Positions 9,027 to 28,630 of a DNA stretch of 32,069 bases are shown piece by piece. This DNA comes from Paracoccaceae bacterium (GTDB lineage Bacteria > Pseudomonadota > Alphaproteobacteria > Rhodobacterales > Rhodobacteraceae), in NCBI GenBank assembly GCA_020441385.1, contig JAGRMG010000238.1:1-32069 (forward strand), written 5' to 3'. Below the pieces are notes generated by a model that was given only the letters and a program-made list of their open reading frames with translations, did not search any database and had not been told where the DNA came from. Within the stretch, counting starts at the first letter, position 1; the number at the start of each line of letters is the position of its first letter. The position numbers were made by a program, and so were the translations under genes.

Positions 9027-10103
9027 ATGACCGGTGTTTGCCCCAGCCAGCAGATCGAGGCGATGATCGCCGAAGGCACCATCGCCGCCGATCCGCCGGT
9101 CCTGCCCGAACAGGTGCAGCCGGCCAGCCTGGATCTGCGCCTGGGCGCGCGCGCCTATAGGGTGCGGGCGTCGTTCCTGGCCGGTCATGGCCGCAGCGTT
9201 GCCGACCGGCTGGCCGAGTTCGAGATGCACAGGATCGACCTGACCGGCGGCGCGGTGCTGGAAAAGGGCTGTGTCTATCTGGTGCCGCTGATGGAAAGCC
9301 TGGCCCTGCCCCGCGGCATGACGGCAGTGGCCAACGCCAAGAGCTCGACCGGGCGGCTCGATCTGCTGACCCGCACCATCACCGATGGCGGCACCGAGTT
9401 CGACCGCGTGCCCGAAGCCTATCGCGGCCCGCTATACGCCGAGATCTGCCCGCGCAGCTTTTCGGTGCTGGTGCGCCCCGGCATGAGGCTCAACCAGATC
9501 CGGTTCCGCCGTGGCCAGGCGGCGCTGGAAGACGCCGACCTGAAGGCACTGCACGCACGCACGCCGCTGGTCGACGGCCCCGCGGTGATCCGCGACGGGC
9601 TGGGATTCTCGGTGGATCTGCGCCTGCCCGGCAACGATCTCGTCGGCTACCGCGCCAAGCCGCATACCGGGCTCATCGACCTTGGCCGGATCGGCCATTA
9701 CGACCCGTCAGAATACTGGGAGGAAGTGCGCACATCGCAGGGGCGCATCATTCTCGACCCCGGCGCCTTCTACATTTTGGTCAGCCGCGAGGCGGTGCAT
9801 ATTCCGCCCGAATACGCCGCCGAAATGGCCCCCTATCTGGCGATGGTGGGCGAATTCCGGGTGCATTACGCGGGCTTTTTCGACCCCGGCTTCGGCCATG
9901 CGGCGGCCGGCGGCGCGGGTTCGCGCGGGGTGCTCGAGGTGCGCTGTCACGAGGCGCCCTTCGTGCTGGAACATGGCCAGGTCGTCGGCCGGCTGGTCTA
10001 TGAACGCATGGCCGAGGTGCCGACCCAGCTTTACGGCGCCGGCATCGCATCGAACTATCAGGGCCAGGGACTGAAGCTGAGCAAGCATTTCCGCAGCGGC
10101 TGA
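9027..10103 (+). CDS. dcd: dCTP deaminase, long two-domain alphaproteobacterial form
   Basis: A 358-residue protein made of two dUTPase/Dcd-like halves, about twice the length of E. coli Dcd (193). The first half has VLPEQVQPASLDLRLG, the YLVPLMESLALP strand, and NAKSSTGRLDLLTRTITDGGTEFDRVPEAYRGPLYAEI, the Dcd core including the phosphate-binding Ser-Ser-x-Gly-Arg and the T-D-G-G-x-E-F turn. The second half repeats the fold with PGAFYILVSREAVHIPPEYAAEM, HYAGFFDPGFGHA and EVRCHEAPFVLEHGQVVGRLVYE. It deaminates dCTP to dUTP for thymidylate synthesis. AAAGGA at 9014-9019 sets the start. It converges on the FAD monooxygenase with only 11 bases between stops. Confidence 0.9.
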   Translation: MTGVCPSQQIEAMIAEGTIAADPPVLPEQVQPASLDLRLGARAYRVRASFLAGHGRSVADRLAEFEMHRIDLTGGAVLEKGCVYLVPLMESLALPRGMTAVANAKSSTGRLDLLTRTITDGGTEFDRVPEAYRGPLYAEICPRSFSVLVRPGMRLNQIRFRRGQAALEDADLKALHARTPLVDGPAVIRDGLGFSVDLRLPGNDLVGYRAKPHTGLIDLGRIGHYDPSEYWEEVRTSQGRIILDPGAFYILVSREAVHIPPEYAAEMAPYLAMVGEFRVHYAGFFDPGFGHAAAGGAGSRGVLEVRCHEAPFVLEHGQVVGRLVYERMAEVPTQLYGAGIASNYQGQGLKLSKHFRSG

Positions 10104-24338: not shown

Positions 24339-24485
24339 GACAACGAAATATCGTGCTGCACTTGCAGAAAGCCATGCGCGAGATGCAATGCAGCCATGCA
24401 CAATAGGGGTATCCGAATCGCACCTGTTGGGTATAACCAACGTCACGCCGCAAAACGCAAGAGCAAGAAGACCAAGGAAAACGAG

Positions 24486-24812
24486 ATGATAGATTTCGTT
24501 GACGGCACTGCCTTTAACAACGAACAAGGCAATCGTGCACGTAAACTGTTCGCGGCCGTGGTACTGGCCGCTCTCGACGATGCCATCGCCGATGACAAGA
24601 AATATGGCAACGGCCCCGATCAGATCGCCCGCTGGGCGCGGTCGCGCGACGGGCGCGAAGTGCTGTCCTGCGCGGGCATCGACCCGAACGAACGCGTCGT
24701 GTCCGGGCTGATGGAATTCGTGGGCAAGGGCGTGCGCACCTCCGTGGCGCTGTCGCGCGAGGAAAGCGAACGGCGCAACGCCGCGGCTGCGGCCCAGGCC
24801 GAAGCCGCCTGA
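24486..24812 (+). CDS. DUF6280-like small conserved protein
   Basis: A 108-residue soluble protein: [20 protein letters not shown], a helical [19 protein letters not shown] segment, then [38 protein letters not shown] recognise it as a short conserved Rhodobacteraceae protein annotated as DUF6280; its function is not known to me. AAGGA at 24473-24477 fits ATG 24486; the frame starting at 24396 has no better site. No nucleotide-binding or membrane motif is seen. A strong terminator follows, so it is a single-gene unit. Confidence 0.75.
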
Positions 24813-24950: not shown

Positions 24951-26147
24951 CTAGTCAAGCTCCTGCGCGGTCAGCGCCCGGTGGATCTCGCGCCGCACCA
25001 GCTTGCGCACGTTGCGGGTGATGCGTTCACCCAGCGCGCCCTGCAATTCCTCGCGCACGATATCGGCCACCAGTTCGCGCAGGCTGTCCTCGTCCAGGAA
25101 TGTCTCGTCCGAAGACAGGACATCGGCGGCGCCTGTCCCGGGTTCCGGCCGCGCCGCCCCGTCGGCTTCGTCAGCCGGCGCGTCCGGGCCCTCGTGGTCG
25201 TGGTCTTCCCACTGGATGGTCTCGACCGGGGTCCCGGCATAGTCGTCCATGCCGGTGCCATCCGGCTCCCACTGGTCGCGGGTCCGGCCTATGGCGGCCT
25301 CGAGCGCCTGTATCTTGGCGTTGAGCGTTCCGGCGCGGAACGCCCCGGACGGTTCCCCCGGAGCCTGACGCCCGTCCGGCGCATCCTCGGGAACGTCCTG
25401 GCCGATCTCCGGTTCGGCTTCGGTCTCCGGTTCGGGCTCGTCGTGGCGATCCCGCGCGGACGGCTTCCCTGCCTGGGTATCGCCATCGTCCTCGGCCGGA
25501 TCGTCGGCAATCTCCTCACGCGGGGCCGTGCCTGCGCGCTCGCCGTCTTGCGCCGCTTCAGCCTCCGGCTCCGGGTCGTCGCGCTGCGCAGCCTCGCCGA
25601 TGCCGCCCTCGGCGTCACCGGCATCCGCGGCGTCAGGGTCCGGCCCGGGGCCGGCTTGCGCGTCGTGCGGCTCCTCCCGAGGCGTGGCGACGGCCGACCG
25701 GGCCGAGGCGAAAAGCGTGGCGCTGGGATCGCTCCAGGGGGCACCCTCGCCCGTCGGGTCGGCCTCGGGCCCCGACATGTCGTCATCGCCACCCGCGCGG
25801 TCGGATGGCGGATCGGCCGCAAGATCGCCGGCCTGGGTCTCGGGCTCGAGAAGGAACGCCAGCGGCCCCGCCGGCCCGTCGGTGTTCGCGGCGGCGTCGG
25901 CCGATTCCCGCGCATCGCCGCTCTCGGCCACCCTGAGCGGTGCCTTGCCGGCAGTCGGCGATTGCGGGTCCGGTTTCGACCTGGGCGTATCGGCCACCCG
26001 GAGCGATGGCGTCAGGACCAGCCGGCCATGCTCGACCTTCTCGGGCGGCGCGGCCCGACGCGGCTCGGTCCAGCTTTCTTCGCTGACAAGACGGCGAATC
26101 GAGGACAGCACGTCCTCGATCTCGGTTTTGGAAACGGGATCAGACAT
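24951..26147 (-). CDS. PopZ-like (DUF2497-type) protein with a long acidic linker
   Basis: A 398-residue, very acidic protein. Residues 9-24 (EIEDVLSSIRRLVSEE) match the N-terminal helix of PopZ/DUF2497 proteins (E-x-I-L-x-S-I-R-R-I-I-S). The last 55 residues (FLDEDSLRELVADIVREEL, then GERITRNVRKLVRREI and HRAL) resemble the oligomerising C-terminal helices. Between them lie about 300 residues of Asp, Glu, Pro, Ala and Gly, predicted disordered, compared with a much shorter linker in Caulobacter PopZ (177 residues in total). PopZ forms polar condensates that tether the chromosome origin. The order isoaspartyl-methyltransferase-like, tolC, this gene is also what I know around popZ in other alphaproteobacteria. 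The name remains inferred. Confidence 0.65.
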   Translation of the reverse strand: MSDPVSKTEIEDVLSSIRRLVSEESWTEPRRAAPPEKVEHGRLVLTPSLRVADTPRSKPDPQSPTAGKAPLRVAESGDARESADAAANTDGPAGPLAFLLEPETQAGDLAADPPSDRAGGDDDMSGPEADPTGEGAPWSDPSATLFASARSAVATPREEPHDAQAGPGPDPDAADAGDAEGGIGEAAQRDDPEPEAEAAQDGERAGTAPREEIADDPAEDDGDTQAGKPSARDRHDEPEPETEAEPEIGQDVPEDAPDGRQAPGEPSGAFRAGTLNAKIQALEAAIGRTRDQWEPDGTGMDDYAGTPVETIQWEDHDHEGPDAPADEADGAARPEPGTGAADVLSSDETFLDEDSLRELVADIVREELQGALGERITRNVRKLVRREIHRALTAQELD

Positions 26148-26221: not shown

Positions 26222-27640
26222 TCACTTCTTGCCCAGCGCCTTCATCACGCGGTCAAGGTCGCGGCCGCGCTTGCTGACGGCGGCGGGCGCGTCCTTGACC
26301 AGGTTGTAATACAGCGTCGGGTCGTAGATCTGCACCGCCAGCCCCAGCCGTTCGGCGGTCAGCAACCCCTGGGCGACAAGCAGCTGATAGGCCGCCAGCG
26401 ACTGTTCGGCCTGGGCCGAGATGCGCGAGGTCAGCGCGTCCAGAAGTTCCTGTTCGGCCGACAGCACATCCAGCGTGGTGCGCGCGCCCAGCGTCGCCTC
26501 TTCGCGGATGCCCTCGAACGCGACGCGGGCGGCGCGTACCTGTTCCTGCGTCGCGACCAGGCTGGCCCGGGCCACCTGAAGCCGCGCATAGGCGTTGCTG
26601 GTCTCCTGGATGATCTGATCCTTGACCGTCAGAAGGTTGGCGCGCGCGGAATCCCGCGTCGCCATGCTGCGCCTGAGCGATGCCGCCAGGGCGCCGCCCT
26701 GGTAGATGTTCTGGCGCAGACCGAGGGAAACCGAGGCCGTGTGGTTGTAGTCGTCAACCTTCATGTTCTCGGTCACGCCAACCTCGGCGCGCAACGAGAC
26801 CGTGGGACCAAGCGCCTTGGACGTGCGCAGAACCACGAGTTCGGCGGCCGAGACCTGATGCTGCGCCGCCTTGATGCTGGGATGGTTACGCAGCGCGAAA
26901 TCGCGTGCCGCCTCGACCGAGGCGGGCGGCGCCGGCAGCTTCGGCTGACCGGCCAGGGTGCCCGGAGGGTTGCCCACCGCGGTCAGGTATTCCGCCTGCG
27001 CCCTGACCAGATCGCCGCGCGCCGCGGCCAGACCGGCCCGGGCATTGGCGACCCGCGATTGCGCCAGCGCGACGTCGGTGCGCGTCACTTCGCCCACGTC
27101 GAACCGGTCCTGCGCGGCGCGCTGCTCCTCGCCCAGCACGCGCAGGTTGTTTTCGCGCAGGGTGACGTTTTCCGTGGTCAGCAGCACGTTCAGATAGGCG
27201 CCCACGGCGCGGAACAGGATCTGCTGTTCGACCGCGACCAGCGATTGCCGCGTCGCCAGCACGGTTTCCTGCGCCGCCTGCTTGCCCAGCACGCTGGCAC
27301 CGCCATCGTAGATCAATTGGTCGAGGGTGATGCCGGTGAAGAAATTCGGAGTGTTGACGTGCCGGAAAATCACGCCGGTACGGCTTTCCGTCCAGGTCTT
27401 GGATGCCGACACCGTCCAGTTGATGACCGGCCGCAATGCCGCCACTGCGATCGCCACGTCCTCGTCTGCCGCCCGCAACAGCGCCCGGTTCTGTTCCAGC
27501 AACCCGCTGGTGTTGTAGGCGCCGATCAGCGCGTCGGCCAGGTTGTCGGCCTGGCCCGGTTTCGGCGCCGCCGCGGCCAGCGCCATCCCGGCGGCCATGA
27601 CCGCCGCCCTGAGATATCCCGATTTCATCGCCCTGCGCAT
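26222..27640 (-). CDS. tolC: TolC-family outer-membrane channel protein
   Basis: A 472-residue TolC-type protein. The signal peptide MRRAMKSGYLRAAVMAAGMAL ends near PGQADN. The two structural repeats are visible: ALIGAYNTSGLLEQNRALLRAADEDVAIAVAALRP and, in the second half, ALRNHPSIKAAQHQVSAAELVV, with helical VALAQSRVANARAGLAAARGDL and TLDVLSAEQELLDALTSR. TolC forms the trimeric outer-membrane duct of type I secretion and drug-efflux pumps. No inner-membrane partner is encoded here. GGAGG (27652-27648) is seven bases before ATG 27640. The open frame to 27898 overlaps the upstream methyltransferase-like gene and is rejected. Confidence 0.92.
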   Translation of the reverse strand: MRRAMKSGYLRAAVMAAGMALAAAAPKPGQADNLADALIGAYNTSGLLEQNRALLRAADEDVAIAVAALRPVINWTVSASKTWTESRTGVIFRHVNTPNFFTGITLDQLIYDGGASVLGKQAAQETVLATRQSLVAVEQQILFRAVGAYLNVLLTTENVTLRENNLRVLGEEQRAAQDRFDVGEVTRTDVALAQSRVANARAGLAAARGDLVRAQAEYLTAVGNPPGTLAGQPKLPAPPASVEAARDFALRNHPSIKAAQHQVSAAELVVLRTSKALGPTVSLRAEVGVTENMKVDDYNHTASVSLGLRQNIYQGGALAASLRRSMATRDSARANLLTVKDQIIQETSNAYARLQVARASLVATQEQVRAARVAFEGIREEATLGARTTLDVLSAEQELLDALTSRISAQAEQSLAAYQLLVAQGLLTAERLGLAVQIYDPTLYYNLVKDAPAAVSKRGRDLDRVMKALGKK

Positions 27641-27743
27641 CCCCGCCCCTCCGTTGCCCGTCGGCGTGCGCCGATCCTGCTGCCTTTCGCGGCCGGCGGC
27701 AATGCCGGGCCAGGCAGGTTTCCGCCGCGCTGCCGGTGCTTTC

Positions 27744-28397
27744 TCACAGCGCGAAGACGCGCTGGCGTTCAAAGCCCGGCAGAACCGGAGCGCCGGCGTT
27801 GAACTCGAACCGCCACGACATCGCGCCACCCGCCTTGTAGCCGATACGCACGGTTCCCAGGGCGTTGTCCATGAAGATGCAGGCAATGCGCCCGCCATCC
27901 TTGAGTTGCGCCAGCAGCGGTTCGGGCAGGTTCTCGACCCCGCCCTGAACCAGGATCACGTCATAGGGGCCGTGTTCGGCCGCGCCTTCGGCCAGCGGGC
28001 CGGTATGCATGACCGCGTTGTCCGCCCCGGCCTGCGCCAGCAGCGCCTGCGCCTCCTCGGCCATGGCCGCGTCGTCCTCGACGGCGATCACCGCCTGCGC
28101 CAGCCGGGCCACGACGGCCGTGGAATAGCCCAGCCCCGGCCCGATATCGAGCACCAGTTCGCCGCCCGAGATATCCAGCGCGTCCAGCATCTTGGCCAAG
28201 GTGCGCGGCTCCAGCAGCACGCGGCCGCCGCCGATGTCGAGATTGTTGCCGGCATAGGCGGCCTCGCGCAGCGCCTCGGGCACGAAAATCTCGCGCGGAA
28301 CGTCAAGCATGGCCTCGATGATCGGAAACTTGGTCACGTCCGACGGGCGGACCTGGGTATCGACCATGACATTGCGGCGGGCGGCGAAATCGGTCAT
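27744..28397 (-). CDS. Protein-L-isoaspartate O-methyltransferase-like protein, diverged active site
   Basis: A 217-residue Rossmann methyltransferase. MVDTQVRPSDVTKFPIIEAM and VPREIFVP open the fold, and SAM motif I is VLDIGPGLGY (82-91). The end, LPGFERQRVFAL, also fits the PCMT family. The usual active-site loop G-Q-T-I-S is replaced by GGRVLLEPRTLAKM (57-70), lacking the Ser/Thr that contacts isoaspartate. Such tolC-linked relatives are generally annotated as isoaspartyl methyltransferases, but the substrate may differ. The frame runs to 28595; ATG 28397 is the family start. It precedes tolC by 103 bases on the same strand. Confidence 0.82.
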   Translation of the reverse strand: MTDFAARRNVMVDTQVRPSDVTKFPIIEAMLDVPREIFVPEALREAAYAGNNLDIGGGRVLLEPRTLAKMLDALDISGGELVLDIGPGLGYSTAVVARLAQAVIAVEDDAAMAEEAQALLAQAGADNAVMHTGPLAEGAAEHGPYDVILVQGGVENLPEPLLAQLKDGGRIACIFMDNALGTVRIGYKAGGAMSWRFEFNAGAPVLPGFERQRVFAL

Positions 28398-28630
28398 AGC
28401 TGCATTCTTTCGGGCAATCGGTTGCGGGCGTTGCCCGGGTTTTGCCACATCCCCGACCGACCGGCAACGGGCAGAGATGCGAAATGACGCCGCGCCCTGC
28501 GCCTGCGGCGCACGGGTCACAGGCGCGGCTGGCATGGCCTGCTGCCGCGCCCACGCCTGCGCCGGTTGACACGCCGTGACAGGCCGCGGCCGCAAGCGGG
28601 CAACGGGACAGGACAGCGCCCCGGCAGGCT

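Follow-up and report, generated by a model that had tools for sequence, protein, structure and literature searches.

The closest described system is the polar organising protein PopZ of Caulobacter. PopZ has been described with a single helix at the N-terminus and three at the C-terminus (PMC9926476), and the Caulobacter linker comprises 78 aa with a net charge per residue of -0.28 and 29% proline (PMC9512792). Doubling this linker to 156 aa gave condensates that were too fluid and lowered fitness, and the same source reports that length and charge compensate for each other among PopZ homologs (PMC9512792). For the Rhodobacterales, published work describes Rhodobacter sphaeroides as containing no PopZ (PMC6414705) and many members of the order as being without a conspicuous one (PMC5182065), and a polar localizing protein has been postulated for R. 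sphaeroides (PMC6315104). A two-hybrid assay showed no binding of R. sphaeroides ParB1 to Caulobacter PopZ (PMC9298525), and R. sphaeroides ZitP, with glutamine at residue 27, is mostly diffuse when combined with Caulobacter PopZ, its polar localisation being restored by Q27R (PMC5182065). A report of a Rhodobacterales PopZ was not found in the open-licence literature, and one may exist elsewhere.

The window analysed here, a stretch of 32,069 nucleotides from a Paracoccaceae bacterium, contains a 398-aa ORF (P0001, beginning MSDPVSKTEIEDVLSSIRRLVSEE) which, judged from sequence comparison, is real and orthologous to PopZ. The gene represents the Rhodobacterales popZ ortholog, too strongly altered for standard models to recognise, and its product most likely works as PopZ does. 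By descent it is a PopZ, and because it lies below the curated PopZ definitions it is filed as a divergent subfamily. The gene, its parts and its neighbours are listed in Table 1.

Table 1. Positions of the popZ-like gene, its predicted parts and adjacent or other genes within the window.
Feature	Coordinates	Strand	Evidence and remarks
Divergent popZ gene P0001, 398 aa	24951..26147	-	ORF and family profile evidence
Helix H1, aa 7-25, EIEDVLSSIRRLVSEE, predicted counterpart of the PopZ client-binding helix	26073..26129	-	AlphaFold2, ortholog conservation, gap-free 6xry alignment
Acidic disordered linker, aa 26-269, including the RLVLTPSLRV motif	25341..26072	-	Low pLDDT and composition
Conserved RLVLTPSLRV motif, aa 42-51	25995..26024	-	Ortholog conservation
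H2-like helix within the linker, aa 270-292, LNAKIQALEAAIGRTRDQ region	25272..25340	-	AlphaFold2, block pLDDT 71-78
Lineage-specific WEPDG...DYAGT...WEDH motif, aa 293-320	25188..25271	-	Ortholog consensus WEPDG
Helix H3 (aa 353-369), which makes up the first half of the putative DUF2497-like oligomerisation region	25041..25091	-	AlphaFold2, block pLDDT ~86; DUF2497 match at aa 349-391
Helix H4, aa 371-397, GERITRNVRKLVRREIHRAL	24957..25037	-	AlphaFold2; many positions invariant among orthologs
tolC-type outer-membrane efflux gene	26222..27898	-	PF02321 E 3.1e-52; TIGR01844 273.7 bits; 74 bp upstream of the popZ-like gene
PIMT-like methyltransferase gene	27744..28595	-	ORF, start codon approximate; PF01135 E 1.6e-32; below the NCBIfam pimt equivalog cut-off
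DUF6280 gene	24396..24812	+	PF19796 E 5.5e-45
dCTP deaminase-family gene	9027..10103	+	DCD N- and C-terminal domains, E 6.2e-79 and 2.8e-88

An initial annotation, made from the sequence alone, had proposed PopZ homology at both ends of the protein and an HMM search with those ends as its check. As a single sequence P0001 stays below threshold at both: positions 31-73 of the 75 in Pfam DUF2497 (PF10691) match the C-terminal region with E 0.013 and 16.3 bits against a cut-off of 27, and positions 4-60 of NCBIfam PopZ_fam (NF052660) match aa 10-79 with E 0.24 and 12.6 bits against a cut-off of 125, so that both curated cut-offs are missed. Family profiles are significant at both ends and bear the proposal out. 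In hhalign comparisons of the derived family with PopZ profiles the N-ends reach a probability of 96.0% (E 3.9e-9) and the C-ends 94.7% (E 5.7e-8), in each case with profiles built without two partial (L012, L055) and three divergent (L019, L023, L025) sequences; crossed comparisons of N-end with C-end give at most 0.94%, and the best of 200 column-shuffled PopZ profiles score 20.0 (N) and 19.5 (C) against real scores of 47.7 and 41.1. A profile of 26 orthologs searched against PDB sequences (E up to 10) has a sole match, at E 0.00064, to Polar organizing protein Z (6xry), with profile residues 1-34 aligned to residues 1-43 and the alignment gap-free over H1 (6xry residues 1-25). DUF2497 and PopZ_fam each match 25 of these 26 orthologs at sub-threshold level, and any other family matches one of them at most. 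P0001 alone matches no PDB sequence, and a Foldseek search of its AlphaFold2 model against the PDB returns no match either. These single-sequence searches are uninformative, an empty result being expected of a model that is largely disordered and of low confidence (mean pLDDT 55, pTM 0.21).

The gene neighbourhood agrees with these profile matches. The PIMT, TolC and popZ-like genes lie on one strand with PIMT-TolC upstream of the popZ-like gene, and the same neighbourhood surrounds canonical popZ in other families, where PIMT is found in all 20 loci, TolC in 19 and the PIMT-TolC-popZ order likewise in 19, which upholds the proposed isoaspartyl-methyltransferase-tolC-popZ arrangement. The order is present on one strand in 19/19 Rhodobacteraceae loci with a derived or intermediate gene (L071-L089) and recurs at 73 out of 80 loci from named Rhodobacterales, a sample out of at least 563 that includes Szabonella, Pseudorhodobacter, Roseovarius, Sulfitobacter, Loktanella, Rhodobacter sp. 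SW2, Paracoccus sp. IB05 and others; the R. sphaeroides ortholog is not among these 80. A contig end falls near six of the seven loci without the full order, and the seventh (L211) comprises 2.8 kb without a TolC match. A nearby valS, which the initial annotation proposed to look for in relatives, does not characterise the derived lineage. With a pattern consisting of one ValS motif, by which variants can be missed, the motif adjoins popZ in 13/20 canonical loci and lies within the flank in one further locus, adjoins one of the 19 Rhodobacteraceae genes (L087, an intermediate) and adjoins none of the popZ-like genes at the 80 named loci. The organism's own genome has seven ValS-model matches, none of them on the contig of the window. 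As some canonical loci are also without valS, adjacency to it is not a necessary feature of popZ. On the other side of the popZ-like gene, directly downstream and convergent with it, lies the DUF6280 gene, whose family is functionally uncharacterised, followed by an EF-P-like ORF read from its translation. The dCTP deaminase-family protein elsewhere in the window is ordinary.

AlphaFold2 predicts for P0001 the four helices of Table 1 and a low-confidence helix at aa 145-151, with disorder between them. In a canonical PopZ (L042) the predicted helices span residues 12-28, 152-171 and 179-218. Judged against this model and the published helix count, the layout of H1, disorder, H2-like helix, H3 and H4 is predicted to be kept relative to PopZ, although in the P0001 model 60 residues part the H2-like helix from H3. 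P0001 and Caulobacter PopZ (6xry) have in common a core of E-[ED]-[VI]-L-x-S-I-R-R in the N-terminal helix at the same residue numbers, and both have an acidic disordered linker and C-terminal helices. Residues D12, L14, S16, I17, R18 and L20 of H1 are invariant among 26 orthologs. In the same set L45 of the RLVLTPSLRV motif is invariant and R50 and V51 are each conserved in at least 90%, and a LVLTPALRV-like string is found in 87/99 orthologs. The H2-like helix has the consensus LxxxIAxLEAA (26 orthologs), and in many orthologs its IAxLEAA is followed by WEPDG, with a loose [W/F][E/D][P/S][D/E]-like pattern present in 57/99.

The derived proteins differ from Caulobacter PopZ at the C-end. Canonical loci carry a PMLKEWLDQNLP-type signature (RPMLKEWLDxNLP) in which P189, L191, W194 and D196 are invariant. 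This signature is not found in the derived sequences, which in its place have LQGxLGERITRNVRKLVRREI, and self-assembly of the derived protein may therefore differ. P0001 further departs from the Caulobacter system in its extra WEPDG motif, in having no adjoining valS and in falling below the curated cut-offs. What is new here is the combination of rewritten end helices with a conserved helix and WEPDG motif inside the linker, accompanied by a matching change in ZitP.

The initial annotation had placed its emphasis on the linker as a special natural alteration of this gene. The stretch between the end helices of P0001 spans about 327 aa, or 321 aa after trimming, some four times the 78 aa of Caulobacter, and is predicted to be disordered, with a net charge per residue of -0.159, 24% acidic residues and 12.8% proline, both charge density and proline being lower than in Caulobacter. 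Such lengths are common in the lineage, and a uniquely extended linker is rejected as the main point: 31 of 106 family frames are at least as long as that of the window (median 353 aa, window 403), the 106 being taken from matches to profile A3, built on the derived C-end, with E values up to about 2e-20 and with the weaker rows of the 132 matching genomes left out. After trimming, the window's linker measures 321 aa against a median of 255 (140-382) in 30 relatives, window included, and a median of 145 (98-196, H2 included) in 29 canonical linkers; the composition set omits the partial L012 and L055. Across 99 distinct linkers (median 234, range 94-474) that of the window is the tenth longest. 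Longer linkers are not less charged in these 99 (Spearman correlation between length and charge fraction +0.19, P 0.065, kinship ignored), so the length-charge compensation reported for PopZ homologs is not seen among them. A member of the same family, G078, has canonical PopZ ends in a 452-aa protein with a long linker (L031). Long linkers therefore also arose with canonical ends and, given that intermediate frames measure only 187-238 aa, the length of the linker and the alteration of the ends are distinct traits. L031 differs from P0001 in retaining an H1 and a C-end of canonical type (69.4 bits against DUF2497) alongside a ZitP with R27. Because a doubled linker makes Caulobacter condensates too fluid, it may be that assembly through the altered C-end is stronger or that these bacteria make use of a more fluid condensate.

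Nearly all relatives of the gene, like P0001, score below the curated cut-offs. DUF2497 scores above its cut-off in 153/192 alphaproteobacterial genomes as against 4/149 genomes of the family, and these four comprise a derived-type gene just above the line (G022), the fully canonical G078 and the canonical-like, long genes of G008 and G017. Profile A3 (E up to 0.01) matches 132 of the 149 without internal stops, the weakest matches being doubtful (G117, E 0.004), and loss of PopZ in the lineage is accordingly rejected. P0001 as a single query matches 25/61 genomes, all in its own family. A separate true popZ, which the initial annotation named as a finding against its reading, is not present: in the organism's own genome (G000, assembly 94.77% complete) P0001 is the sole DUF2497 match (E<=0.1). 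The tolC side was also inspected in the 17 genomes without an A3 match and in three with a weak C-end, tolC being matched in 17 of these 20, and it holds canonical-like genes (G078, G008, G017), eroded genes or no PopZ-like frame. Eroded genes occupy the popZ position after tolC at L276, L277, L280 and L281 (G069, G117, G001, G143). Most of the C-terminal helices are apparently lost in G117 and G069. In G030, G116 and G159 no PopZ-like frame beside tolC was caught by a filter that was loose, which makes these absences weak. Given eroded or missed genes in some family genomes, the function would be dispensable in places. Intermediate sequences exist in G004, G107 and G124, and those of G107 and G124 have a canonical-type H1.

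As in the ZitP-PopZ polarity module (PMC5182065), a ZitP gene is present in the organism's own genome (L118), and its product has Q27 like that of R. sphaeroides in place of R or K; a ParB above cut-off is also encoded. A zinc-ribbon match of ZitP type was obtained in 62 of 63 genomes searched, the one without being G162. Residue 27, in the numbering of PMC5182065, is Q in all 30 own-family genomes of a first set that have ZitP and a derived gene (further changed in G035), R in three basal members of the family (G078, G017 and G004), and R or K in 28/28 genomes outside the family; it could not be read clearly in G008. A further 30 own-family genomes, selected because their PopZ was odd, weak or missing, yielded 26 ZitP matches, with 18 Q, 4 E (G023, G014, G030, G033), 3 R (G102 and the basal G107 and G124) and 1 K. 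One R27 (G102; L325, L304; a MAG, 83% complete) falls inside the derived clade together with a derived PopZ C-end, and may be either reversion or contamination. Two ZitP-like zinc-ribbon proteins per genome occur in G017 and G078 (L168, L169, L176, L177), where a canonical-like PopZ is kept.

On a PIMT+TolC tree of 61 rows, built by a quick method without bootstrap, a 35-row clade (SH-aLRT 100) holds all derived genes, and G078, G017/G008 and G004/G107/G124 fall outside it. Parsimony on this tree, with labels (derived, eroded, intermediate, canonical) assigned by reading sequences, G116 labelled eroded though without a PopZ frame, and R and K merged at residue 27, gives one change of PopZ type and four changes at ZitP 27; the PopZ change and ZitP R27Q share one branch. 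The main changes in PopZ and ZitP co-occur. With a single shared branch this is neither statistically independent nor proof of interaction, and it gains weight from the reported role of residue 27 in deciding the localisation of R. sphaeroides ZitP with Caulobacter PopZ. That both changed on the same branch suggests that PopZ and ZitP were retained as a re-tuned pair, not lost.

The homology, synteny, domain layout, presence throughout the lineage and co-occurring ZitP change shown here provide a model for a divergent PopZ, for which we infer oligomerisation, polar localisation, client binding and pairing with ZitP, and a role as a polar condensate scaffold is likely. H1 would capture client proteins, the acidic disordered linker would hold chains apart, and H3 and H4, perhaps with the H2-like linker helix, would self-assemble. 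The assembled protein could then form a polar condensate holding the ParB-bound origin and other partners. H1 and the C-terminal surfaces would have changed in the ancestor of most Rhodobacterales, with R27 of the zinc-ribbon partner ZitP becoming Q on the same branch. A more far-reaching reading, about as likely as not, is that Rhodobacterales never lost PopZ but carry a re-tuned PopZ-ZitP module in which client helix, oligomerisation helices and ZitP zinc ribbon changed together, that an H2-like helix and WEPDG were gained in a linker several times the length tolerated in Caulobacter, and that this scaffold is the postulated Rhodobacter OriC1/MipZ polar factor.

It is unlikely, if conceivable, that the gene is a popZ ortholog by descent whose product has lost polar organising and serves another scaffold role, for instance with ZitP or envelope proteins, the poles being organised by another protein. 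The rewriting of both end helices, the rise of a new linker motif and the erosion or loss of the gene in some relatives would fit such a change, as would the suggestion in PMC5182065 that this lineage has put ZitP to other functions or paired it with other partners. However, H1 retains the core residues of PopZ in a spacing free of gaps, the predicted helix layout is retained, both ends show strong conservation throughout the main clade and ZitP co-occurs. It is much less probable that P0001 is a decaying remnant under relaxed constraint and heading to loss: the graded series from canonical through intermediate and derived to truncated and apparently absent genes could be read in this way, but the C-end has a mean column identity of 67% with 14 invariant columns among 25 orthologs, and its match is free of stops in 132/149 genomes. 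The reading of P0001 as a protein without relation to PopZ, acidic and disordered with short helices and placed after tolC by chance, would account for single-sequence scores under the cut-offs and the empty Foldseek search but is already disfavoured to the point of being negligible, given the significance of both ends against PopZ profiles, with far lower scores in the shuffled controls, a unique PDB match to PopZ, synteny in common with canonical popZ and intermediate sequences such as those of G004, G107 and G124.

If the identification of P0001 as a working Rhodobacterales PopZ is true, a large and intensively studied group of bacteria would have a polar anchor that can be tested directly, at a locus already known to follow PIMT and tolC, and the unusual Rhodobacter ZitP would be explained. 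The family would also offer a natural series of scaffolds, with linkers of 94-474 aa in 99 sequences, in which the effect of linker length and charge on condensate fluidity could be tested.
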